Of a DNA stretch of 44,738 bases, positions 33,119 to 44,455 are shown one piece after another. A model generated the notes under the pieces. That model did no database searches, had not been told where the DNA came from, and was given only the letters and a program-made list of their open reading frames with translations. The stretch comes from Acidiphilium sp. 37-60-79. GTDB taxonomy: Bacteria; Pseudomonadota; Alphaproteobacteria; Acetobacterales; Acetobacteraceae. The position numbers and the translations under genes were made by a program. The stretch is from contig NCBV01000021.1 in the NCBI GenBank assembly GCA_002279355.1, positions 1-44,738 on the forward strand. The letters are read 5' to 3'. Position 1 is the first letter of the stretch; every line of letters starts with the position of its first letter.

Positions 33119-34696
33119 ATGACCGAGCATCATCACGCCGAGCGGATTCTCATTCTCGATTTCGGCAGCCAAGTAACCCAACTCATTGCCCGCCGCCTGC
33201 GCGAAGCCGGTGTCTATTGCGAAATCTGGCCGTTTGACGCTGATCCTGCCCGCATGGCGGCGTTCGGCGCGCGCGGCTTTATTCTGTCGGGCGGCCCCGC
33301 CAGCGTCAGCGAGGCCGGTTCGCCCCGCGCCCCTGATTTGGTGTTTCACGCGGGCGTGCCGGTGCTGGGCATTTGCTATGGCCAAATGACCATGTGCGCC
33401 CAACTCGGCGGCGATGTGGATAGCGCGCATATCCGCGAATTTGGCCGCGCAACTGTCCAAATTACCGAAAATTGCGGCCTGTTCGAGGGGGTTTGGGCGG
33501 CTGGCAGCCAGGAAACCGTCTGGATGAGCCATGGTGACCATATCAGCGCGCCACCACCCGGCTTTCGCACCGTTGCGGTCAGTGAAGGCGCGCCCTACGC
33601 CGTCATCGCCGATGATAGCCGCAAGTTTTACGGGCTGATGTTCCACCCGGAAGTCATGCACACGCCGCACGGCGCCCAATTGCTCGGCAATTTCGTTCAT
33701 CGCGTCTGCGGCCTTGCGCGCCGCTGGACCATGGCCAATTTCCGCGACACCGCCCGTGCGGCGATCAAATCCCAGGTTGGCGCCGGCCGGGTCATTTGCG
33801 GTCTCTCCGGTGGCGTCGATTCCGCCGTGGCCGCTGCCCTGATCCACGAAGCCATCGGCGAGCAGCTGGTCTGTATTTTCGTCGATCACGGCCTATTGCG
33901 CGCCCATGAGGCGGATGAGGTGGTGAGCCTGTTCCGGGATCGTTTCAATATCCGCCTGATCCATCGCGATGCGTCGGATTTATTTTTCACCGCCCTCGCG
34001 GGTATCAGCGATCCGGAGCAAAAGCGCAAAATTATCGGCGGGCTGTTCATCGATGTGTTCGAGCAAGAGGCCCAAAAGCTGGGCGGTGCCGATTTCCTTG
34101 CCCAAGGCACGCTCTATCCCGACGTGATCGAAAGCGTCTCGGTCAGCGGTGGACCCAGCGCTGTGATCAAATCACATCATAATGTCGGCGGCCTGCCTGC
34201 GCGTATGCGCCTCAAATTGGTCGAGCCGCTGCGCGAGCTCTTCAAAGACGAAGTCCGCGCCTTGGGCCGCGAATTGGGCCTGCCCGAAACATTGGTCGGC
34301 CGCCATCCGTTCCCCGGCCCCGGCCTCGCGATCCGCATCCCCGGCCCGGTCGATCGTGAAAAAGTTTCGATCCTGCAAAAAGCTGACGCGATCTACCTGC
34401 ATGAAATTCGCGCAGCCGGCCTCTATGACCAAATCTGGCAAGCCTTCGTCGCCCTGCTGCCGGTGCGTAGCGTCGGCGTCATGGGCGATGGCCGCACCTA
34501 CGATTATGCCTGCGCCCTCCGCGCCGTGACCAGCACCGACGGCATGACCGCCGATGTATTCCCCTTCGAAATGACCTTCCTCAACCGCGTCGCTGGCCGC
34601 ATCGTCAATGAAGTGCGCGGCATCAACCGCGTAACCTACGACATCACCAGCAAACCCCCCGGCACCATCGAGTGGGAACATAAGATACTGATATAA
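33119..34696 (+). CDS. guaA: GMP synthase (glutamine-hydrolysing)
   Basis: 525 residues. Converts XMP to GMP. N-terminal glutaminase ([18 protein letters not shown]86 in [15 protein letters not shown]), ATP pyrophosphatase P-loop [11 protein letters not shown], then the dimerisation domain. Most GuaA proteins end GTIEWE; here the frame continues with HKILI before TAA. The added residues lie just after an island attachment core, so the C-terminus seems to have been rewritten by integration. Confidence 0.97.
34670..34677 (+). other. Putative att core (left junction of the island) in the guaA 3' end
   Basis: GAGTGGGA at codons for E-W-E of guaA matches the conserved core at which integrases of guaA-associated genomic islands are known to recombine. 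The sequence after it departs from the usual stop. I found no second copy up to the window edge. Confidence 0.65.
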
Positions 34697-34761: not shown

Positions 34762-34907
34762 TGACGGTATGCCTAGATATTGCGTAAGGCCGAAAACCAG
34801 AATACCGTCAGAGGTGTTGAGGCTCTTGACGGTATTCTTTCTAGGCTAATTATCTGGAAACAAAGTGAAATCTGATCCAAGAGCCTGTCAAAAGTGCGTG
34901 ACGGTAT
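34762..34907. repeat. Four TGACGGTAT boxes upstream of the integrase
   Basis: Direct copies at 34762-34770, 34827-34835 and 34899-34907, and one inverted copy at 34802-34810. The second and third boxes extend into a perfect 12-bp inverted repeat (34799-34810 / 34827-34838, 16-nt loop). Direct copies are 65 and 72 bp apart. This looks like arm-type integrase or excisionase sites beside attL, possibly also controlling int. Confidence 0.65.
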
Positions 34908-34926
34908 TTTTGGAAAGGAGGCCGCG

Positions 34927-36183
34927 ATGCTGACGGATGTCGCCATTAAGAACCTGAAATCACAAGAAAAACCATACAAGGTCACCGACCGGGACGGCAT
35001 GTATTTGCATGTCGCTCCGAGTGGAGTGCTGACTTTCAGGCTGGATTACCGTCTCAACGGTCGCCGCGAGACGGTGTCGTTCGGAAGGTATGGACCAGGC
35101 CATCTGTCACTCGCACGAGCCCGGGAAATGTGCATCGACGCGAAGCGCGCGGTCCGCGAGGGGCAGTCGCCCGCGATCGAGAAGCAACGCGCCAAGCGGC
35201 GGCTGAAAGAAGCCAAGAGCTTCGGCGAATTCGGTGAGAAGTGGCTGACGGCAGGACCCATGGCCGACAGCACGCGCGCGATGCGCCGTTCAATCTTCGA
35301 ACGCGAATTACTGCCTGTATGGCGCGGTCGCTTGTTGACAGAAATCACCCCCGACGATCTCCGGGCGCATTGCGGCAAAATCGTGGACCGGGGTGCGCCG
35401 GCTACGGCCATCCACGTCCGCGACATCCTCAAGCAGATTTACGGCTTCGCGATCCTGCATGGCGAGAAGGTGTCGAACCCTGCTGACGAGGTCGGGCCGG
35501 CCTCGATCGCGACCTTCGTCCCGAAAGATCGCTCACTGTCGCCTACCGAGATTCGTGTAATGCTTAAGCAACTCGATCATGTTGCTACGCTGCCAACGAT
35601 CCGTCTCGGCCTTCGCTTGTTTCTTCTGACCATGGTTCGCAAGAGCGAGCTTCAGGACGCCACATGGGATGAGGTCGATTTCGAGAACGCGGTCTGGACG
35701 ATTCCGAAAGAACGGATGAAGCGGTCGAAGGCGCACAATGTCTATCTATCGTGCCAGGTCCTCGACATTTTCATCGCGCTGAAGACGTGCGCGGGGAACT
35801 CACGGTATGTCCTGCCGTCGCGCTATGACGCTGATGCTCCGATGTCTCGCGCGACATTCAACCGAGTGACCTACTCCGTAGTTGACCAAGCCAAGAAGGA
35901 GGGGCTACCGCTCGAACCGTTCACGGTCCACGATCTACGCCGGACCGGATCGACATTGCTGAATGAACTCGGCTTCAACAGCGACTGGATTGAAAAATGC
36001 CTCGCGCACGAGGATGGGCGGTCGTCGCGCGCCGTCTACAATAAGGCGGAGTACGAGATCCAGCGGCGGCACATGATGCAGGAATGGTCGGATGTCGTCG
36101 AAGCCTGGGTCTCGGGTCGCAAGCGAGCTGCTGTACTTATGCCCCCTCCGATGCCGGTCTTGGAGCCCGATCCGGCTCTCTGA
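34927..36183 (+). CDS. P4-type site-specific tyrosine integrase
   Basis: 418 residues from ATG 34927 with AAGGAGG upstream; a GTG at 34894 is in frame but falls on a repeat box. Domains: N-terminal arm-binding DUF4102 (LTDVAIKNLKSQEKPYKVTD), SAM-like core-binding (about 95-185), catalytic part with R238 (MVRKSEL), H335 and R338 (HDLRRTGS), H361 (LAHED) and Y371 (AVYNKAEY). Catalyses integration at guaA, by location. Its 3' end overlaps the convergent AlpA-like gene by 47 bp. Confidence 0.95.
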   Translation: MLTDVAIKNLKSQEKPYKVTDRDGMYLHVAPSGVLTFRLDYRLNGRRETVSFGRYGPGHLSLARAREMCIDAKRAVREGQSPAIEKQRAKRRLKEAKSFGEFGEKWLTAGPMADSTRAMRRSIFERELLPVWRGRLLTEITPDDLRAHCGKIVDRGAPATAIHVRDILKQIYGFAILHGEKVSNPADEVGPASIATFVPKDRSLSPTEIRVMLKQLDHVATLPTIRLGLRLFLLTMVRKSELQDATWDEVDFENAVWTIPKERMKRSKAHNVYLSCQVLDIFIALKTCAGNSRYVLPSRYDADAPMSRATFNRVTYSVVDQAKKEGLPLEPFTVHDLRRTGSTLLNELGFNSDWIEKCLAHEDGRSSRAVYNKAEYEIQRRHMMQEWSDVVEAWVSGRKRAAVLMPPPMPVLEPDPAL

Positions 36184-36696: not shown

Positions 36697-36987
36697 ATGA
36701 GGATTAAAAACGTGGTCCACGAGGGGCTGCGCCGGTTCATCGCGGATGATGACGCAGCCGGTCTCCAGGCTGCCGCCGTAACGAAGGTGCGGCGAATTCT
36801 ATCCTTCCTACAAGATATGGAGAGGGAAGATGAGATCGGGACTGTGCCGCATTGGAAAGCGCATCCGCGCGCTAGGGGCCGTTTGGCAAGCCGGAGCGTC
36901 GCTGTCACGGAGCACTGTCGGCTCACGTTTCAGATCGATCAGACCAACGCCGAGATCATTGATCTCGATTGCGGCGATTGCCGATAG
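36697..36987 (+). CDS. higB: HigB-like RelE/ParE-superfamily toxin
   Basis: 96 residues. Matches the HigB plasmid-maintenance-killer pattern: IKNVVHEGLRRFIADDDAAG, a central helix KVRRILSFLQDM, HWKAHPRARGRLASRSVAV and CRLTFQIDQTNAEIIDLD. HigB cuts mRNA on the ribosome. Toxin-first order, antitoxin 9 bp downstream. Confidence 0.88.
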   Translation: MRIKNVVHEGLRRFIADDDAAGLQAAAVTKVRRILSFLQDMEREDEIGTVPHWKAHPRARGRLASRSVAVTEHCRLTFQIDQTNAEIIDLDCGDCR

Positions 36988-36996
36988 GAGGCGGCG

Positions 36997-37329
36997 ATGA
37001 TGGCGATGGAAGGTATGAGGATGCGGAATCCTGCCCACCCAGGGGGATTTGTGAAGAGTGAAGTCATCGAAGCCCTGGGGCTTTCGGTGACCAACGCGGC
37101 TCAGGCGCTTGGCGTCACACGGGCAGCGTTGTCGGCCGTGCTAAACGAACGTGCGCATCTTTCACCGGAAATGGCGCTGCGGCTCGAAAAGGCGTTCGGG
37201 GTGTCGATGGATACGCTGATGCGAATGCAGAACAGCTATGACATCGCCCGGACCCGAGAGCGAGAGGCGGAGATCAGGGTTACCCCCTTCAAGGGCAAGC
37301 CGTTCGATCCACAACCGGGGCTCAATTGA
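36997..37329 (+). CDS. higA: HigA-like antitoxin
   Basis: 110 residues. HTH_XRE antitoxin of the HigA family: NPAHPGGFVKSEVIEALGLS, SVTNAAQALGVTRAALSAVLNER, MALRLEKAFGVSMDTLMRMQ. Neutralises HigB and represses the pair through the upstream palindrome. AGGAGG precedes the ATG. The pair likely stabilises the island. Confidence 0.9.
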   Translation: MMAMEGMRMRNPAHPGGFVKSEVIEALGLSVTNAAQALGVTRAALSAVLNERAHLSPEMALRLEKAFGVSMDTLMRMQNSYDIARTREREAEIRVTPFKGKPFDPQPGLN

Positions 37330-37369: not shown

Positions 37370-40120
37370 ATGAACGCTGTAGAGATCGAAGAAGCAATAT
37401 CGGCGCTGGCGGAGCGCCCCTTCGACTCTGACGAGTTCCCCTACGCATTCCTCGAAGCCTTCGGGAACAAGGAAACGACGCTCAAGCGCTTGCGCAAAGG
37501 CGAGTCCAACAAGTCCGATCTGGGCGGCGTGCTTCAGACGAACAACATCCACATCGCCGTTTGCAAGCCTGGCGAAGTTACTCGTACGCTCGCGGCGTTG
37601 AAGGCCAGCCCGGCGACCGCGCGGGCGAAGGCGCGCTTTGTGCTCGCCACGGATGGCGATCTGTTCGAGGCTGAAGACCTCACGACCGACGACGCGCCGG
37701 TCTCCTGCACCTATGCCGATTTCCCGAACCACTTCGGCTTCTTCCTGCCGTTGGCCGGCATCACGACGGTCCGGCAGGTGCGGGAAAGTTCATTCGACAT
37801 CCGGGCGACCAGCCGGTTGAACCGGCTGTATGTCGAGCTGCTGAAGGATAATCCCGAATGGGGCACCGTACAGCGCCGGCATGACATGAACCACTTCATG
37901 GCACGCCTGATCTTCTGCTTTTTTGCCGAGGATACAGAGATTTTCAACGGAGGCGGCGCGTTCACCTCTACCATTGAGACAATGAGCACAAGGGATTCGT
38001 CCAACACCCATGAGGTGATTCGCGAACTGTTCCGTGCCATGAACACTAAGACAACGGAACGGGTGAGAGCTGACACTCCGCGCTGGGCCGATGGCTTTCC
38101 CTATGTGAATGGCGGGCTGTTCTCTGGCAGCGCGGATGTCCCGCGGTTCAGCCGCATCGCGCGCTCGTATTTGCTACATATCGGCGGTCTGGATTGGAGG
38201 AAGATCAACCCGGACATTTTTGGATCGATGATCCAGGCGGTGGCAGATGACGACGAGCGCGGCGCGCTCGGTATGCATTATACAAGCGTGCCGAACATCC
38301 TGAAGGTGCTGAACCCGCTATTCCTCCAAGACCTGTGGCAGCAGCTTATGGAAGCCGAAGATAATACGCGCATGTTACTCAACCTGCGTAAGCGGATGGC
38401 GAAAATTCGGGTGTTCGATCCGGCCTGCGGCTCGGGCAACTTCCTTGTTATCGCCTACAAGGAAATGCGAGCGATCGAGGCGGAGATTAATCGCCGCCGC
38501 GACGAAGCACACCGGAGCACGGAAATTCCGTTGACAAACTTTCGTGGGATCGAGCTGCGCGACTTTCCGGCCGAGATCGCACGCCTAGCGCTCATCATCG
38601 CCGAATATCAGTGTGACGTGCTTTATCGGGGCCAGAAAGAGGCGCTCCATGATTTCCTGCCGCTAGATGCGCAGAACTGGATTACCTGTGGTAATGCTCT
38701 GCGACTCGATTGGCTTAGCATATGCCCACCGACCGGAACCGGCGTAAAGCATTATGCGGATGATCTGTTTCACACACCGCTCAACCAGGCACAGATCGAC
38801 TTTGAGAACGAAGGTGGTGAAACATATATTTGTGGGAACCCCCCATATTTGGGCCAGGCTTGGCAAAATGCCGACCAAAAATCAGATCTTGCCGCAATTT
38901 TGGACAAATATAGAAGTAAATCAGCCGCAATCGATTACGTTTGCGCATGGCTTATAAAGGCGGCTGAGTACAATCAGAAAACGTCAGCAGCATATGCTTT
39001 TGTGACCACGAATTCCTTGTGGCAAGGGCAGCAAGTATCCGTACTATGGCCAATTCTGAGAGAATTAGAAGCCGAGATTGTGTTTGCCGAGCCGTCATTC
39101 AAATGGCGGAACTTGGCCAACTACAACGCAGGCGTTATCGTTTCCATTGTGGGGCTTGAGCACCGAACGAAACGTAGAAGGGTTTTATTCGAGGAAGCGG
39201 AGGTGGGGTCGGTCGGCGTTAGGGAAGTAACAAGCATAAATGCATATCTTGTCCAAGGACCTGATGTAGTTATAGAGGCACAATCTGCTCCGATCAATGG
39301 TTTATCACCGATGTTATACGGCAACCAGCCACGAGATGGCGGACATCTCTGCCTTGACTGGACCGAAGTGCAGAAGTGCAAAGAAACGTTTTCAAAGGAG
39401 GCTCACTGGTTCAAACGATATATTGGTTCCGCTGAAATGATACGCGGGCAGATGCGCGGCTGTATCTGGATTCCCGATAATGAGGCAAAGGAAGCAATTA
39501 AACATCCCTTTGTCGGTCCCAGACTAGCACTTGTAGCGAAAATGCGTGCAGAAAGTCGGGCACCATCCACTCAAGCTTTTTCATCTCGCCCACACCGTTT
39601 TGTTCAAATACAAGGTGTAGCAAAAAATTATACAATAGCGGTCTCTAAAGTATCCTCCGAGCGGAGAAAATATTTGCCTGCTGACATATTCGACAGCGAG
39701 ACAATTATTAGTGATCTTTTATTTGGGATATACGATGCTCCACTTTGGAATTTCGCTATCATCTCTTCGTTGATGCATACAGTTTGGATTGGCGCTGTAT
39801 GTGGAAAACTCAAAACTGATTATCGATATTCAAACACGCTTGGCTGGAACACCTTTCCAGTTCCAAAGCTCACAGAGAAAAATAAGGTCGATTTGACGCG
39901 TTGCGCTGAGGATATCCTCCTTTCACGCGAATCATATTTTCCATCTACAATCGCGGACTTGTATGATCCAGATAGCATGCCCGATGACTTGCGCGCGATG
40001 CACTTGAGAAATGACGAAGTGTTGGAGCGTATTTATATTGGTAGGTGCTTCCGAAATGACACAGAGCGGCTCGAAAAGCTTTTCGAATTATTCTCAAAGA
40101 CACGTTGCGCAAGGTTGTAA
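37370..40120 (+). CDS. Class I SAM-dependent DNA methyltransferase (MmeI/YeeA-like, no nuclease domain)
   Basis: 916 residues. An N-terminal helical region without an evident PD-(D/E)XK motif leads to a gamma-class N6-adenine methylase: motif I VFDPACGSGNFL (about 347-358), GIELRDFPAEIARLALI, motif IV NPPY (490-493). The C-terminal ~400 residues should hold target recognition. Base composition drops sharply from about 38.85 kb, right at NPPY: the 60-base row starting 38521 is about 57% GC, while 38881 is about 38% and 39601 about 35%. Probably marks self DNA for the following nucleases. First gene of the four-gene block; a 2-bp gap to the PLD gene. Confidence 0.9.
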   Translation: MNAVEIEEAISALAERPFDSDEFPYAFLEAFGNKETTLKRLRKGESNKSDLGGVLQTNNIHIAVCKPGEVTRTLAALKASPATARAKARFVLATDGDLFEAEDLTTDDAPVSCTYADFPNHFGFFLPLAGITTVRQVRESSFDIRATSRLNRLYVELLKDNPEWGTVQRRHDMNHFMARLIFCFFAEDTEIFNGGGAFTSTIETMSTRDSSNTHEVIRELFRAMNTKTTERVRADTPRWADGFPYVNGGLFSGSADVPRFSRIARSYLLHIGGLDWRKINPDIFGSMIQAVADDDERGALGMHYTSVPNILKVLNPLFLQDLWQQLMEAEDNTRMLLNLRKRMAKIRVFDPACGSGNFLVIAYKEMRAIEAEINRRRDEAHRSTEIPLTNFRGIELRDFPAEIARLALIIAEYQCDVLYRGQKEALHDFLPLDAQNWITCGNALRLDWLSICPPTGTGVKHYADDLFHTPLNQAQIDFENEGGETYICGNPPYLGQAWQNADQKSDLAAILDKYRSKSAAIDYVCAWLIKAAEYNQKTSAAYAFVTTNSLWQGQQVSVLWPILRELEAEIVFAEPSFKWRNLANYNAGVIVSIVGLEHRTKRRRVLFEEAEVGSVGVREVTSINAYLVQGPDVVIEAQSAPINGLSPMLYGNQPRDGGHLCLDWTEVQKCKETFSKEAHWFKRYIGSAEMIRGQMRGCIWIPDNEAKEAIKHPFVGPRLALVAKMRAESRAPSTQAFSSRPHRFVQIQGVAKNYTIAVSKVSSERRKYLPADIFDSETIISDLLFGIYDAPLWNFAIISSLMHTVWIGAVCGKLKTDYRYSNTLGWNTFPVPKLTEKNKVDLTRCAEDILLSRESYFPSTIADLYDPDSMPDDLRAMHLRNDEVLERIYIGRCFRNDTERLEKLFELFSKTRCARL

Positions 40121-41280
40121 ATATGAAGGTATCCTCGTTTATACACTCAGATAGCGCCCATCCTACGACCTTGACTGAAATAAAGCGTATGCATGACCGT
40201 GTTTCGCCCACGGATTTTTTCGGCGTTTATGCATATGCAACGTCGTCGGGAGTTGCTTCGTTTGAATTAGAATTCGGTCAGAGTTTCTGGTTGGACGCAC
40301 CATCAAGGTGGCTCTTCGGACTGGACTACGGGAGAACGCAACCACAGGCGCTCAGGAGGATTATTCAAAAGCCAAACACAGAAGTCAAGATTGTAGATGG
40401 AGCTTGGATAGTTGAGCAAGAAGGCTTTCTTCCGCGCCGCGACTTCCATGCGAAATTAGCTCTTCTTCGCAATCCGCAGGAAGTGCGATTCGGGATGGTC
40501 GTCGGCTCTGGGAACTTTTCCTCAAACGGACTAAAGAAGAGTCTTGAAGGAGGAGCAGTGATTTATGTAGACAATAAGGTTGACTACAATAAATGCTTGT
40601 CAAAAAGCTTCGCTATTGCAAAGGGGCTCTGGAAAAACGCGACGCCGGCCGAAGAAGTCTTGAGTGCATATGAAGAGCGCTGGACCAATTCCTTCTCGCG
40701 AGGTGTAGCAATCGCGGAAGATGGCATTTTTGGTCCTAGACAAATATTCTGGATCGAAGCAGGTTATGTAACGAAGAATAGGGGAGAATTCTCTCCAGGC
40801 AATCAAATTGATTTGCCTCGTGGCATGTCACGATTTTTTGGCTTCAATCCAGACAGAAATCTACCGTTGAATTCGATAATAGGAGCAGTGACCTTCCTTA
40901 CACCCGTCGGCGGCCCGATAACCAGAAATTTAAGACTTGGAAATAACCAAATGGAAAAGATTACTCTTCCTATACCTGAAACCCATGGATTCGACATTTA
41001 TGATGGCAAGGTTCTTGTATTTCAAACGCATGAAGATGGCTTCAAAACGAGGGCATTAGAGGGCGATGACTTTGAGTCTGCCTTTGGAGATAGATTAAAG
41101 GATGTCCGTGTCATGGGTAGTGGACGACGATACGGATATATTGAGTGAAGAAGACCTCTTGTCGCGTCTTGAGTTGTGATGAAATTGAGAGATCCTCCTA
41201 TGAATAATGTCAAATCCGTACCTTCGGTATCTGTTCGATATTCGCAACGTGGAAGTTCGACTAAGGCTAATGAATTCGGT
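38840..41280. other. AT-rich exchange cassette (methyltransferase C-half, PLD nuclease, helicase N-tip)
   Basis: Composition is low throughout (for example the 60-base row starting 40561 is about 32% GC by hand count) between GC-richer flanks (row 41281 is about 62%). The left edge coincides with methyltransferase motif IV and the right edge with the start of the conserved helicase domain. Boundaries are approximate, read by eye. Confidence 0.7.
40123..41148 (+). CDS. Phospholipase D-like (NgoFVII/HKD-type) nuclease
   Basis: 341 residues from ATG 40123, 2 bp after the methyltransferase stop (a TTG at 40105 lies inside it). RRDFHAKLALL (H109, K111) followed by GMVVGSGNFSSNGL (128-137) is a single HKD half-site as in NgoFVII/BfiI-type restriction nucleases that work as dimers; the canonical Asp of HxKx4D is not in register. 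The C-terminal half is unrecognised and may bind DNA. AT-rich throughout. Predicted cleavage subunit of the system. Confidence 0.75.
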   Translation: MKVSSFIHSDSAHPTTLTEIKRMHDRVSPTDFFGVYAYATSSGVASFELEFGQSFWLDAPSRWLFGLDYGRTQPQALRRIIQKPNTEVKIVDGAWIVEQEGFLPRRDFHAKLALLRNPQEVRFGMVVGSGNFSSNGLKKSLEGGAVIYVDNKVDYNKCLSKSFAIAKGLWKNATPAEEVLSAYEERWTNSFSRGVAIAEDGIFGPRQIFWIEAGYVTKNRGEFSPGNQIDLPRGMSRFFGFNPDRNLPLNSIIGAVTFLTPVGGPITRNLRLGNNQMEKITLPIPETHGFDIYDGKVLVFQTHEDGFKTRALEGDDFESAFGDRLKDVRVMGSGRRYGYIE

Positions 41281-43254
41281 ATGCGGCCGATGCAGGAGCG
41301 CGCCTTCGAGAAGCGCGGCGAGCAATATCTGCTGATCAAGTCGCCGCCGGCTTCGGGCAAGAGCCGCGCACTAATGTTTATCGCCCTGGACAAGCTCAGC
41401 AATCAGGGGATCAAGCAGGCCATTATCGTCGTGCCGGAAAAATCCATCGGCGCCAGCTTCCATGATGAGGATTTGAGTAAGCATGGTTTCTGGGCGGACT
41501 GGCATGTGGAGCCGAAATGGAATCTGTGCGACGCGCCTGGTAATGACAATGGCGGCAAGGTCAAATCGCTTGGCGCGTTCCTGGAGAGCGATGACAAGAT
41601 GCTGGTCTGCACCCACGCCACATTCCGCTTTGCCGTAGAGAAATTTGGGGTTTCGGCTTTTGATGACCGGCTGATCGCGGTGGATGAGTTCCACCATGTC
41701 TCAGCAAATCCTGATAACAAGCTCGGCATTCATCTGGGTGATTTTATTAGCCGCGACCGCGTGCATATCGTCGCGATGACCGGGTCCTATTTCCGTGGTG
41801 ACGCTGAGGCGGTCCTGGCGCCGCAAGACGAAGGCAGGTTCCAGAGCGTAACGTACACCTATTATGAGCAGCTCAACGGCTATCAGTATTTGAAGCAGCT
41901 CGACATCGGCTATTTCTTTTACTCGGGCGCCTATGCCGACGACATTCTGAAGGTGCTGAACGCGAACGAAAAGACGATCATCCACATTCCGAACGTCAAT
42001 GCGCGCGAGAGCACGAAGGACAAGATTAAGGAAGTGGAGCATATCATCGAGACGCTGGGGGATTGGCAAGGGACCGATCCGGCCACCGGCTTCCAGCTTG
42101 TTAAGGCTGCGGATGGCCGGATTTTGCGCATTGCCGATTTGGTCGATGATGACCCCGCCAAGCGGGATCGTGTTTCCGCGGCGCTGAAAGATTCGAGGCA
42201 GAAGAACAATCGCGATTATGTGGACATCATTATCGCGCTCGGCATGGCGAAAGAAGGGTTTGACTGGATTTGGTGCGAACACGCGCTGACGGTCGGCTAC
42301 CGGTCCAGCTTGACCGAGATCGTTCAAATCATCGGCCGCGCGACCCGCGATGCGCCGGGCAAGACCCGCGCCCGTTTCTCGAACCTGATCGCTGAACCGG
42401 CTGCCGCCGATGACATCGTGACAGAGGCGGTCAACGACACCCTTAAGGCCATCGCGGCGAGCCTGCTGATGGAGCAGGTGCTGGCACCGCGGTTTGAATT
42501 TAAGCCCAAGAACCCGCAGAACGGGCCAACGCCCGGTTTTGACTATGGCGAGGGCGGATACGACCCGAATAAATGCAATGTCGGTTTCAGCGAGGAATCC
42601 GGCAAGTTCCAGATTGAGATAAAAGGCTTGGCGACGCCCAAGAGCGAGGAGGCGACTCGCATCTGCCAGGAAGATTTGAACGAAGTGATCGCGGCCTTTG
42701 TGCAGGACAAGACGACGATCGAGCGTGGCCTGTTCGACGAAGAGCTGGTGCCCGAGGAACTGACCCAGGTGCGCATGGGTAAGATTATCAAGGACAAGTT
42801 CCCACAGCTCGACGCCGAGGATCAGGAAGCTGTTCGCCAGCACGCCGTCGCAGCCCTTAACCTGACCCAGAAGGCGAAGGAAGTGGCGTCCGGCAGTTCG
42901 CTTGGCGAGGAGAGCGCCAATACGGCGTTTGTCGATGGCGTCCGCAAGTTCGCGATGGACGTGCGGGAGCTGGACATCGATCTGATCGACCGGGTCAATC
43001 CGTTCGGCGAAGCCTATGCCATTCTCGCCAAGACGATGAGCGAGGAGAGTCTGAAGCAGGTTGCTGCGGCAATTGCCGCCAAGCGCACCAGCCTGACGCC
43101 GGACGAGGCGAAGGTGATCGCCAAACGCGCTGTTGAGTTCAAGCGGGAGCGCGGGCGTCTGCCGTCGATCAGTTCGGCCGACGCCTGGGAAAAGCACTTG
43201 GCTGAAGGCGCTGCCGCATTCGTCCGCTTCAAGGATGAGGGCCGCTATGAGTGA
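41179..43254 (+). CDS. SF2 DEAD/DEAH-type helicase
   Basis: 691 residues from ATG 41179 (a GTG just before or an ATG at 41200 are alternatives; no strong ribosome site). Motifs: MRPMQERAF (Q-motif-like), Walker A SPPASGKSR (about 55-63), DEFH box in AVDEFHHVS (about 168), motif III MTGSYF, motif V GMAKEGFDW and motif VI QIIGRATRD (about 383-391). The C-terminal ~250 residues are helical and unrecognised. ATP-driven DNA translocation or unwinding is expected. Its tail overlaps the GIY-YIG gene by 8 bp. Confidence 0.9.
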   Translation: MKLRDPPMNNVKSVPSVSVRYSQRGSSTKANEFGMRPMQERAFEKRGEQYLLIKSPPASGKSRALMFIALDKLSNQGIKQAIIVVPEKSIGASFHDEDLSKHGFWADWHVEPKWNLCDAPGNDNGGKVKSLGAFLESDDKMLVCTHATFRFAVEKFGVSAFDDRLIAVDEFHHVSANPDNKLGIHLGDFISRDRVHIVAMTGSYFRGDAEAVLAPQDEGRFQSVTYTYYEQLNGYQYLKQLDIGYFFYSGAYADDILKVLNANEKTIIHIPNVNARESTKDKIKEVEHIIETLGDWQGTDPATGFQLVKAADGRILRIADLVDDDPAKRDRVSAALKDSRQKNNRDYVDIIIALGMAKEGFDWIWCEHALTVGYRSSLTEIVQIIGRATRDAPGKTRARFSNLIAEPAAADDIVTEAVNDTLKAIAASLLMEQVLAPRFEFKPKNPQNGPTPGFDYGEGGYDPNKCNVGFSEESGKFQIEIKGLATPKSEEATRICQEDLNEVIAAFVQDKTTIERGLFDEELVPEELTQVRMGKIIKDKFPQLDAEDQEAVRQHAVAALNLTQKAKEVASGSSLGEESANTAFVDGVRKFAMDVRELDIDLIDRVNPFGEAYAILAKTMSEESLKQVAAAIAAKRTSLTPDEAKVIAKRAVEFKRERGRLPSISSADAWEKHLAEGAAAFVRFKDEGRYE

Positions 43255-44455
43255 CTTCGATCTTGACGAGCTGCGTGACGAACTGGCGGATTTCGCCCAG
43301 CCGGAAAAGAAGGGCGGCCGCTCGCCCCGCGAGGAACGCATCATCGCGGGCTTCGAGGAAATTCAGCGGTTCGTCGAAAAGAACGGCCATGCGCCCCGAC
43401 ACGGCGAGGACGGCGACATATTCGAGCGACTCTACGCCGTGCGGCTCGACCGCCTGCGCGCGCTGGACGATTGCCGGTCCCTGCTCACGCCGTTTGATCA
43501 TCAGGGATTGCTGACGGGGGTGCCTGTGGCCTCTGCCGCGCCGGCGGATTTTATGGACGAGGATGAACTGCTCGCCGAACTGGAGGGTGCGGCAGGTTCA
43601 TCCGACATCACTAGGCTGCGCCACGTGCGCACCAGCGCCGAAAAGCGCGAAGCCGAGGAAATCGCGAGCCGCGAAAAGTGCCTTGATTTCGAGACGTTCA
43701 AGCCCCTCTTCCAAGAAGTGCAAAACGACCTTGAAAATGGGCTGCGCACGACAAGGCGCTTTGTCAAAGATGCGGGCTTCCTCAAAGCCGATATTCAAAT
43801 CGGTCAGTTTTTCATCCTTGGCGGCCAGACGGCCTACGTCGCCGAGGTCGGCGATCCGATAAAGGCGCCGAACGGGGAAACCGACGCGCGGCTCCGGGTG
43901 ATCTATTCCAATGGCACCGAGAGCGATCTGCTGCTGAGGTCGCTCCAGCGTGCCCTCTACAAGGATGAGGCCGGTCGGCGGATCACCGAGCCCAGCGCCG
44001 GACCGCTTTTTGACGACCAGACTGGTGACGGCGATCAGGCCAGCGGCACGATCTACGTGTTGCGGAGCAAATCCGATCATCCGCTGGTGGTCGCGAACCG
44101 GGAAATTCTCCATAAAATCGGCGTGACAGGTGGAAGCGTGGAGCGCCGCATCGCCAATGCGCGCCTCGACCCCACCTATCTCATGGCCGAGGTCGAGATC
44201 GTCGCCACCTATGAACTCTACAACGTCAATCGGGCGAAGCTCGAAACCCTGATCCACAGGGTCTTTGGCGCGGCGCGCCTTGATGTCGAAATCAAGGATC
44301 GTTTCGGCCAGCCGATCGTGCCCAAGGAGTGGTTCCTTGCGCCTCTGTTTGCCATCGATGAGGCTGTTGGGCGGATCAAGGACGGCACAATCACCGGATA
44401 CATTTACGACCCGAAGACCGCGAAATTGGCCCTCGCCTCGACGCATGATCGGTGA
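43247..44455 (+). CDS. GIY-YIG nuclease-family protein (T5orf172/MUG113-like C-terminus)
   Basis: 402 residues from ATG 43247 (AAGGATGAGGG upstream, inside the helicase end). Residues 1 to about 265 are acidic and helical without a family I recognise. The C-terminal part begins GTIYVLRSKSDHP (about 267), with KIGVTGGSVERRIANA and AKLETLIHRVFGAARLDV, the GIY-YIG arrangement in T5orf172/MUG113-type domains. Translationally coupled to the helicase; probably an effector or second nuclease of the system. Confidence 0.82.
   Translation: MSDFDLDELRDELADFAQPEKKGGRSPREERIIAGFEEIQRFVEKNGHAPRHGEDGDIFERLYAVRLDRLRALDDCRSLLTPFDHQGLLTGVPVASAAPADFMDEDELLAELEGAAGSSDITRLRHVRTSAEKREAEEIASREKCLDFETFKPLFQEVQNDLENGLRTTRRFVKDAGFLKADIQIGQFFILGGQTAYVAEVGDPIKAPNGETDARLRVIYSNGTESDLLLRSLQRALYKDEAGRRITEPSAGPLFDDQTGDGDQASGTIYVLRSKSDHPLVVANREILHKIGVTGGSVERRIANARLDPTYLMAEVEIVATYELYNVNRAKLETLIHRVFGAARLDVEIKDRFGQPIVPKEWFLAPLFAIDEAVGRIKDGTITGYIYDPKTAKLALASTHDR

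Follow-up and report, generated by a model that had tools for sequence, protein, structure and literature searches.

Why does a gene cluster that already encodes a methylase, a helicase and a nuclease carry the gene of a second, different nuclease? This question is raised by a locus of Acidiphilium sp. 37-60-79 (contig NCBV01000021.1 of GCA_002279355.1; the whole contig, 44,738 nt, is called the window here), where four open reading frames are packed on the + strand at 37370-44455, separated by 2 bp and 30 bp (to 41179) and then by an 8-bp overlap. Their coordinates agree with a sequence-only reading of this DNA, which had described four tightly spaced same-strand genes as a stand-alone defence system that it could not match to any named one. 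We observed that the methylase, the helicase and the GIY-YIG protein match, gene for gene, the already known yeeA(dnmA)-yeeB-yeeC cluster, so that the lack of a named counterpart holds for one gene only, that of a phospholipase D-type (PLD) nuclease, which is the unusual part. Our literature search, in which papers were judged from listings and excerpts and most subscription journals lay outside its scope, found nothing that links a PLD nuclease with YeeA/DnmA, or with MmeI together with a helicase and a GIY-YIG protein. We propose, at a probability of roughly 0.58, that the locus is a restriction-modification system of the YeeABC type to which a second nuclease, dedicated to restriction, has been added, and that this PLD protein would be a site-specific enzyme with a fixed target that is protected by the methylation of YeeA.

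The PLD gene (40123..41148, + strand) encodes an HKD-type nuclease of 341 aa from the ATG at 40123. The window protein itself has no Pfam match at E ≤ 0.1, and at E ≤ 1 it gave merely 12.8 bits to PLDc_2 and 11.5 bits to RE_NgoFVII; the best of its 32 relatives matched PLDc_2 at 7e-6. When searched against PDB, the family profile matched the PLD region of 7clg at 1e-14 (an entry titled putative helicase, which we take to be SauUSI) and BfiI (2c1l) at 0.03. The residues H109, K111, N131 and E142 are invariant in 20 loci as well as in 32 aligned rows, and the C-terminal 137 residues form a strongly conserved domain. In each of the four proteins the catalytic motifs are complete, and apart from single exceptions they are kept across the 20 aligned loci; these motifs, together with the Pfam and PDB profile matches, agree with the naming of the last three proteins as an HKD nuclease, a superfamily 2 (SF2) helicase and a GIY-YIG protein.

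A scan of genome contigs yielded 57 PLD loci, 29 of which encode a protein with at least 38% identity (close loci), while 28 are more distant. Both yeeA and yeeB were present in 28 of the 29 close loci, the exception, L068, being without YeeABC, and yeeC was also found in 25 of those 28, the remaining three stopping at a contig end. The earlier description holds in that the genes are of restriction type and encode two different nuclease folds, and their homologues do co-occur. The gene order is A-P-B-C in 20 of the 28 loci (P being the PLD gene) and A-B-C-P in seven, and P is divergent in one; three loci (L048, L061 and L065) have an extra 0.6–1.3 kb between the PLD gene and yeeB. By their record names these 28 loci belong to Proteobacteria, Acidobacteria and Verrucomicrobia, and many of the records are metagenome bins. 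Named strains that bear the PLD gene include Methylosinus trichosporium OB3b, Sphingopyxis sp. HIX and Erythrobacter sp. NAP1. Among the distant loci, 27 of the 28 have some DNA methylase in the fetched stretch (in L077 by a weak match only), and in L096, where the PLD gene lies near the contig end, a methylase was not detected. These methylases belong to other families, save for the MmeI-like one of L079.

Two side observations concern PLD relatives. In 18 of the 19 loci L082-L100, distant PLD proteins (∼350–420 aa) are clustered with a PglXI-like methylase (∼615 aa) and a second methylase (∼700 aa), and nine of these 18 also have a match to a third, 1071-aa Type IIG-like methylase. A Paracoccus plasmid (L025, 8001-8261) bears a PLD remnant without an annotated gene, consisting of the last 87 residues at 67% identity; sul2 and a gene for an N-6 DNA methylase lie nearby.

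Viewed from the side of YeeABC, the PLD gene is an uncommon addition. YeeB was found in 17 of the 385 class-sample genomes and in 24 of the 398 phylum-sample genomes, four genomes being common to both, and the PLD gene was present in none of 35 genome-sampled YeeB loci (window excluded), several of which are short contigs (the shortest 5.5 and 6.7 kb) that could hide a more distant PLD gene. This set draws on 18 of the 20 further YeeB genomes of the phylum sample, the two omitted being G529 and G555 with their fragments. A PLD match of 28 bits, found in a protein of 815 aa close to the yeeA of L039, was left uncounted. By a hand tally, other genes sit 5′ of yeeB, the place of the PLD gene here, in 15 of the 35 loci. 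The four genes hence do not form a fixed unit, in contrast to the four-gene system of the sequence-only reading. On plasmids, 264 records match YeeB and eight match PLD, and the PLD gene stands beside yeeABC only in one Methylosinus plasmid, which accounts for two records; viral contigs searched with the PLD alignment gave no relatives, and a YeeB search of them gave 24 loci. The PLD gene is nevertheless not random cargo, since 28 of the 29 close loci have yeeA and yeeB and its presence follows the recognition domain of YeeA, as described below.

The slot between yeeA and yeeB is occupied, in loci from the range L030-L143, by genes for RhuM (PDC-S05), PDDEXK_4 (PDC-S26), a DUF1016/YhcG nuclease and BrnT, and further by HigBA-like, RelBE-like, zeta-like and unknown genes, some of them named from sequence only. 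The plasmid loci L168, L170, L175-L177 and L179 have more such inserts. Where both yeeB and yeeC were called, no further gene was seen to separate them, and in L131 yeeA was not found in the fetched stretch.

The yeeA/dnmA-like gene (37370..40120, + strand) encodes a DNA methyltransferase of 916 aa, of the N6-methyladenine (m6A) type by family. All five MmeI domains (N, hel, Mtase, TRD and C) score above the Pfam cut-offs (MmeI_Mtase 4e-111, TRD 4e-77, N 3e-35), and the protein aligns with the MmeI structure 5hr4 at E = 8e-131. The S-adenosylmethionine motif FDPACGSGNFL and NPPY are kept in 20 of 20 aligned loci, and G489, preceding NPPY, in 19. By its family and intact motifs, YeeA is predicted to be an active, site-specific m6A methylase. 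The MmeI_N domain is retained, and the D...ExK nuclease residues, which the relatives in L023 and L079 have, are gone, in line with the earlier description as an MmeI-like methylase without a nuclease; cutting must thus come from other proteins. The PADLOC model PDLC03598 labels YeeA as Type IIG (REase_MTase_IIG, 913 bits) despite the absence of the nuclease residues, and this label is misleading. The target-recognition domain (Pfam MmeI_TRD) spans residues 630–834 (39257..39871, + strand), and the equivalents of the base contacts of MmeI read AVQ/YQ/KDLKDR in it.

We compared the distribution of the PLD gene with trees of this domain and of the other parts of the system. The 85 loci with both regions, drawn from genomes, viral contigs and plasmids, were reduced to 78 by dereplication, 23 with the PLD gene and 55 without. 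Thirty-one loci were scored as PLD-bearing, namely the 29 that the PLD scan had yielded, with the window and L021 added; left out of the 23 rows were L056 and L058, which cover too little of the recognition domain, L068, which lacks YeeABC, and the near-copies L045, L046, L051, L053 and L054. On the recognition-domain tree, PLD presence requires 2 changes compared with a shuffled mean of 20.1, and none of 500 shuffles was as low (78 loci). On the YeeB tree it requires 16 changes (shuffled 20.2; 5 of 500 as low), and on the tree of the N-terminal half of YeeA (69 rows) 14 changes (shuffled 18.9; 3 of 500 as low). A smaller, earlier set had given 3 changes for the domain (46 rows), 13 for YeeB (54 rows) and 10 for the N-terminal half (46 rows). 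The nearest relative bears the PLD gene for all 23 PLD rows by recognition domain and for 11 of the 23 by YeeB. Five loci in which the PLD gene does not adjoin the domain (L050, L052, L055, L059 and L066) still fall inside a 15-row, all-PLD clade with a support of 89. Among 20 dereplicated PLD loci, pairwise identities of the domain correlate with those of PLD at 0.78 and with those of YeeB at 0.27, and the N-terminal half of YeeA correlates with YeeB at 0.65 to 0.72.

The pattern of identity along the operon points to a swapped cassette that runs from about residue 460–500 of YeeA through the PLD gene (38750..41148, + strand; the left edge is approximate). Agrobacterium rubi L169 has a backbone like that of the window (YeeB 91%) without the PLD gene. 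Up to residue 450 of YeeA, the two are 84–96% identical in eight of nine 50-residue windows and 66% in the other; identity is 66% at 451–500, 28–48% at 501–800 and 70–72% at 801–900, and it is 86–100% in YeeB. The GC content at third codon positions falls from 0.70–0.79 to 0.31–0.55 past residue 400 of YeeA in the window, and it is 0.44 in the PLD gene and 0.73 in yeeB. A second pair, L044 with and L126 without the PLD gene, shows per 50-residue window 86–100% identity in YeeA to residue 450 and 75–100% in YeeB, and only 34–52% at residues 501–800 of YeeA.

The residues through which MmeI reads its target are known, and we mapped them onto YeeA via the 5hr4 alignment, which gave 11 equivalent residues. 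In MmeI, bp 1 is contacted by residues 723, 737 and 738, bp 2 by 642, 645 and others, bp 3 by 751 and 773, bp 4 by 774 and 810, and bp 6 by 806 and 808 (PMC4833311). According to the same source, K/R751 with D773 specifies G at position 3, M645 specifies A at 2, K806 with D808 specifies G at 6, and at position 4 L774 with R810 gives G and K774 with S810 gives C. The 11 residues form four signatures among the 23 PLD rows and 50 among the 55 rows without PLD. The four are AVQ FM KDLKDR (13 rows), AVQ FM RDRRDS (7), AVQ YQ KDLKDR (2, window included) and AVQ FM RDSKDR (1). The position-1 trio AVQ is present in 23/23 PLD rows and 2/55 rows without, and K/R..D at the residues for both positions 3 and 6 in 23/23 and 10/55, respectively; the held-out partial YeeAs of L056 and L058 have AVQ and KDLKDR at the nine positions covered. 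In the nearest PLD-less domain (L168, 64% identical), the residues for position 3 are AN where the PLD relatives have RD. The MmeI-like enzymes beside distant PLD proteins were also inspected: those of L023 and L024 have KDLKDR and differ at positions 1 and 2, and that of L079 has ACQ FM RDQKDR.

The shared contacts do not reflect recent descent only, since the 15 KDLKDR domains are down to 50% identical to one another and pairs compared at matched identity differ with PLD presence. At 60–70% domain identity, the six residues that contact positions 3, 4 and 6 are shared by 33/33 PLD pairs and by 2/17 others (these pairs overlap). In disjoint pairs at 45–80% identity, they are shared by 10/11 PLD pairs (mean identity 0.70) and by 4/21 others (0.58). 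On the tree of the PLD rows, these six residues changed 5 times compared with 22 times in matched columns (p = 0.002).

For every one of the 23 PLD-bearing YeeAs, these residues predict a target with G at position 3 as well as at position 6. The target of the window YeeA is predicted as NNGGAG with the A methylated, that of the 13 other rows with M645 as NAGGAG, and that of 7 rows as NAGCAG, the latter two together making 20 of the 23 PLD rows; here, the reading of R774 with S810 as C at position 4 and of R806 with D808 as G at position 6 is our extrapolation. Specificity in the MmeI family diverges, as one domain serves both cutting and marking (PMC4081073). Such divergence is normal for the family and yet the contacts appear frozen here, which suggests an independent reader, and the simplest reason would be a second protein that reads the same site by itself.

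We therefore favour the following scheme, in which the purpose would presumably be defence. YeeA would methylate one adenine of an asymmetric 6-bp site (predicted NNGGmAG in the window). YeeB, an SF2 translocase, and YeeC, a GIY-YIG nuclease, would restrict unmarked DNA by borrowing the target from YeeA in a Type I-like manner; in Type I systems, restriction takes its target from the methylase side. The PLD protein would read a fixed site of its own, N-N-G-(G/C)-A-G with mostly A at position 2, and would cut it when unmarked, either on its own, as BfiI does, or together with an ATPase, as in CglI. It could persist solely where the recognition domain of the neighbouring YeeA protects this site; for this reason PLD and domain would travel as a cassette, with the specificity of YeeA frozen, and one methylase would serve two restriction arms.

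Several points weigh against this proposal, which rests on the comparison of sequences and on a target code carried over from MmeI to the YeeA subfamily. A B3 domain did not emerge from three kinds of search of the PLD C-terminus: none of the 32 members has a Pfam B3 match in the C-terminus, the C-terminal profile hit a single chance-level chain in PDB (E 1.2, none below E 1), and no known family matched this domain; in the same B3 search, PF20731 was absent in 190 genomes of the class, the organism's own genome included. PLD presence is mildly clustered on the YeeB and N-half trees as well (5/500 and 3/500), and the rows are not independent, the loci being related. Across 79 pairs that differ in gene order, the correlation of identities with PLD is 0.63 for the domain, 0.65 for YeeB and 0.77 for the methylase core; these pairs temper the tracking of the recognition domain, as the domain does no better than YeeB or the core. 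After control for the domain, YeeB retains a partial correlation of 0.48 with PLD (p = 0.013) and YeeC one of 0.46. From these two comparisons, physical linkage or a tie to YeeB could also underlie the tracking. A column-entropy test against matched columns was not significant (p = 0.10), and a count of zero changes was discarded as circular, the clades having been chosen by signature. The locus L039 has AVQ and the RD..RD residues without this PLD, so that the rule runs from PLD to specificity and not in reverse. In Bacillus subtilis, deleting yeeB or yeeC, or dnmA, had no effect with three phages (PMC9973331).

The tie to YeeB would be expected if the PLD protein read no DNA itself and docked on a particular form of the YeeA recognition domain as a nuclease subunit, perhaps driven by YeeB in the role that the N-protein has in CglI. 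Such docking predicts the same tracking of the domain; it would account for the YeeB–PLD correlation of identities that persists after domain control, YeeB is present in all close PLD loci but L068, and the R-proteins of CglI and NgoAVII do require an SF2 ATPase for cutting (PMC4267653). However, docking need not freeze base contacts, yet these changed less than matched columns (with the entropy test not significant); PLD relatives also stand beside other methylases without a YeeB match, and the distant MmeI-like partners have the G-specifying residues too. We regard docking as unlikely, and somewhat more improbable still is that PLD and domain co-travel merely as neighbours in a recombining cassette, PLD being functionally unrelated to the target. 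An insertion slot does exist between yeeA and yeeB, with other genes before yeeB in 15 of the 35 sampled loci, and the cross-order pairs favour YeeB no less than the domain. Against mere neighbourhood, PLD follows the domain even when its gene lies behind yeeC or upstream of yeeA, the intervening C-terminus of YeeA shows no tracking with PLD after control for the domain (partial r −0.05), and the two RhuM and the two PDDEXK_4 inserts are unpaired on the domain tree, with differing signatures.

The other occupants of the slot resemble embedded toxins or solo defence candidates (PDC-S05, PDC-S26, BrnT, zeta-like), which would suit a PLD protein that serves as a back-up effector, killing or arresting the cell when an anti-restriction protein blocks the system, in the manner of the guard PrrC. 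A guard would be expected to follow YeeB/YeeC or the whole complex and not a recognition domain with conserved base contacts, and we consider this role very improbable. The notion that PLD replaces the lost nuclease of YeeA was dropped, as L023 and L079 pair PLD with an MmeI-like enzyme that keeps D...ExK. A site-specific PLD nuclease may also be a more general element: the family could be a portable restriction enzyme with a fixed core GGAG/GCAG that settles beside any methylase protecting that site, its hosts being YeeABC, MmeI-type enzymes that are still active and, possibly, clusters that are DISARM-like or have several methylases. We hold this wider view tentatively, at a little short of even odds.

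The remaining two genes of the operon are as follows. The yeeB-like SF2 helicase gene runs from 41179 (or the ATG at 41200) to 43254 on the + strand (DEAD 3e-6, ResIII 2e-5 in Pfam); its motifs PPASGKS and DEFH are invariant in 20 loci and QIIGRATRD is so with one exception. An Acetobacter plasmid relative of this helicase is annotated YeeB. Several plasmid records instead name the protein a pseudomurein-binding repeat-containing protein, perhaps because YeeB matches this Pfam repeat below the threshold. The yeeC-like gene (43247..44455, + strand) encodes a C-terminal T5orf172/GIY-YIG nuclease domain (44045-44377), with matches to MUG113 at 3e-13 (residues 289–376) and T5orf172 at 5e-12 (267–377), and no Pfam family matched the N-terminal part. 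Its Y270, K290, G292 and R301 are invariant, and E333 is present in 19 of 20 loci, with one gap.

Among known systems, the dnmA(yeeA)-yeeB-yeeC cluster has been described as a conserved, possible Type I-like restriction system (PMC7261158, PMC9973331). The window resembles YeeABC of B. subtilis and its homologues in Vibrio crassostreae in the MmeI-like methylase without a nuclease motif, the SF2 helicase, the T5orf172/GIY-YIG protein and the order A-B-C. It differs in that the PLD gene between A and B puts the helicase and GIY-YIG genes at +2 and +3 instead of +1 and +2, and in the predicted target, NNGGAG here and GACGAG for B. subtilis DnmA. BfiI and SauUSI share with the window protein the PLD fold with HxK...GSxN and E, as the profile matches to 2c1l and 7clg indicate; BfiI acts alone with a B3 domain, and SauUSI is a single chain that includes a helicase. 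CglI and NgoAVII combine a methylase, a PLD nuclease and an SF2 ATPase in a similar logic, with an asymmetric cut site (PMC4267653), but their methylase is of the 5-methylcytosine type, not of the MmeI family, and their nuclease has the B3 domain for which the 32 members gave no Pfam match. With MmeI and Type IIL enzymes, the locus shares all five MmeI domains; it is not a Type IIL system, as nuclease and methylase are not in one chain and D...ExK is absent.

The sequence-only reading had also compared the set with DISARM and BREX, and as membership this comparison did not hold. The PLD protein, the helicase and the GIY-YIG protein have no DrmA, DrmB or DrmD match, and the methylase matches DrmMI partially, at best 4e-21; for BREX, the PglZ/BrxC/PglX core was not found among the proteins scanned, the methylase giving partial PglX matches far under the NCBIfam cut-offs. 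As a point shared with DISARM class 1, a distant PLD relative (32%) lies behind the methylase in a DISARM-annotated Methylocystis plasmid locus. The YprA and other helicases of ARMADA, whose methylase has been called YeeA-related (PMC12458937), were not seen here. Membership in Type I was dropped as well, on general grounds.

The operon lies on an integrated island, as had been claimed: a tyrosine integrase gene (34894..36183, + strand; Phage_integrase 1e-21, Arm-DNA-bind_3 1e-18 in Pfam) is directly preceded by guaA (33119-34696, named from its sequence), and a HigBA-like pair comes after it. A search of the organism's own genome for a repeat of the guaA end, as an attachment site, gave none with up to 2 mismatches allowed, and the contig ends at 44738, 283 bp past the last operon gene. 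The pair consists of a HigB-like toxin gene (36697-36987, + strand), a weak assignment at 20.3 bits and below the cut-off of 27, and a HigA antitoxin gene upstream of yeeA (36997-37329, + strand; TIGR02607, 99.6 bits with a cut-off of 47.7). A HigA-type antitoxin gene stands immediately 5′ of yeeA both in the window and in A. rubi L169 (1443-1736).

YeeABC is not rare, and its function is disputed: next to the B. subtilis deletions mentioned above, deletions of the homologues in V. crassostreae affect phage sensitivity, as cited in PMC9973331. If our proposal is true, YeeABC would, in the loci concerned, have two independent arms, of which only one could evolve, and this one would be locked by the other, fixed arm. 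A PLD arm that reads a fixed site would amount to a natural experiment on what leaves some restriction specificities free to evolve and holds others back. It would also make the methylation motif checkable, and may give a handle on whether the YeeB–YeeC arm restricts DNA.

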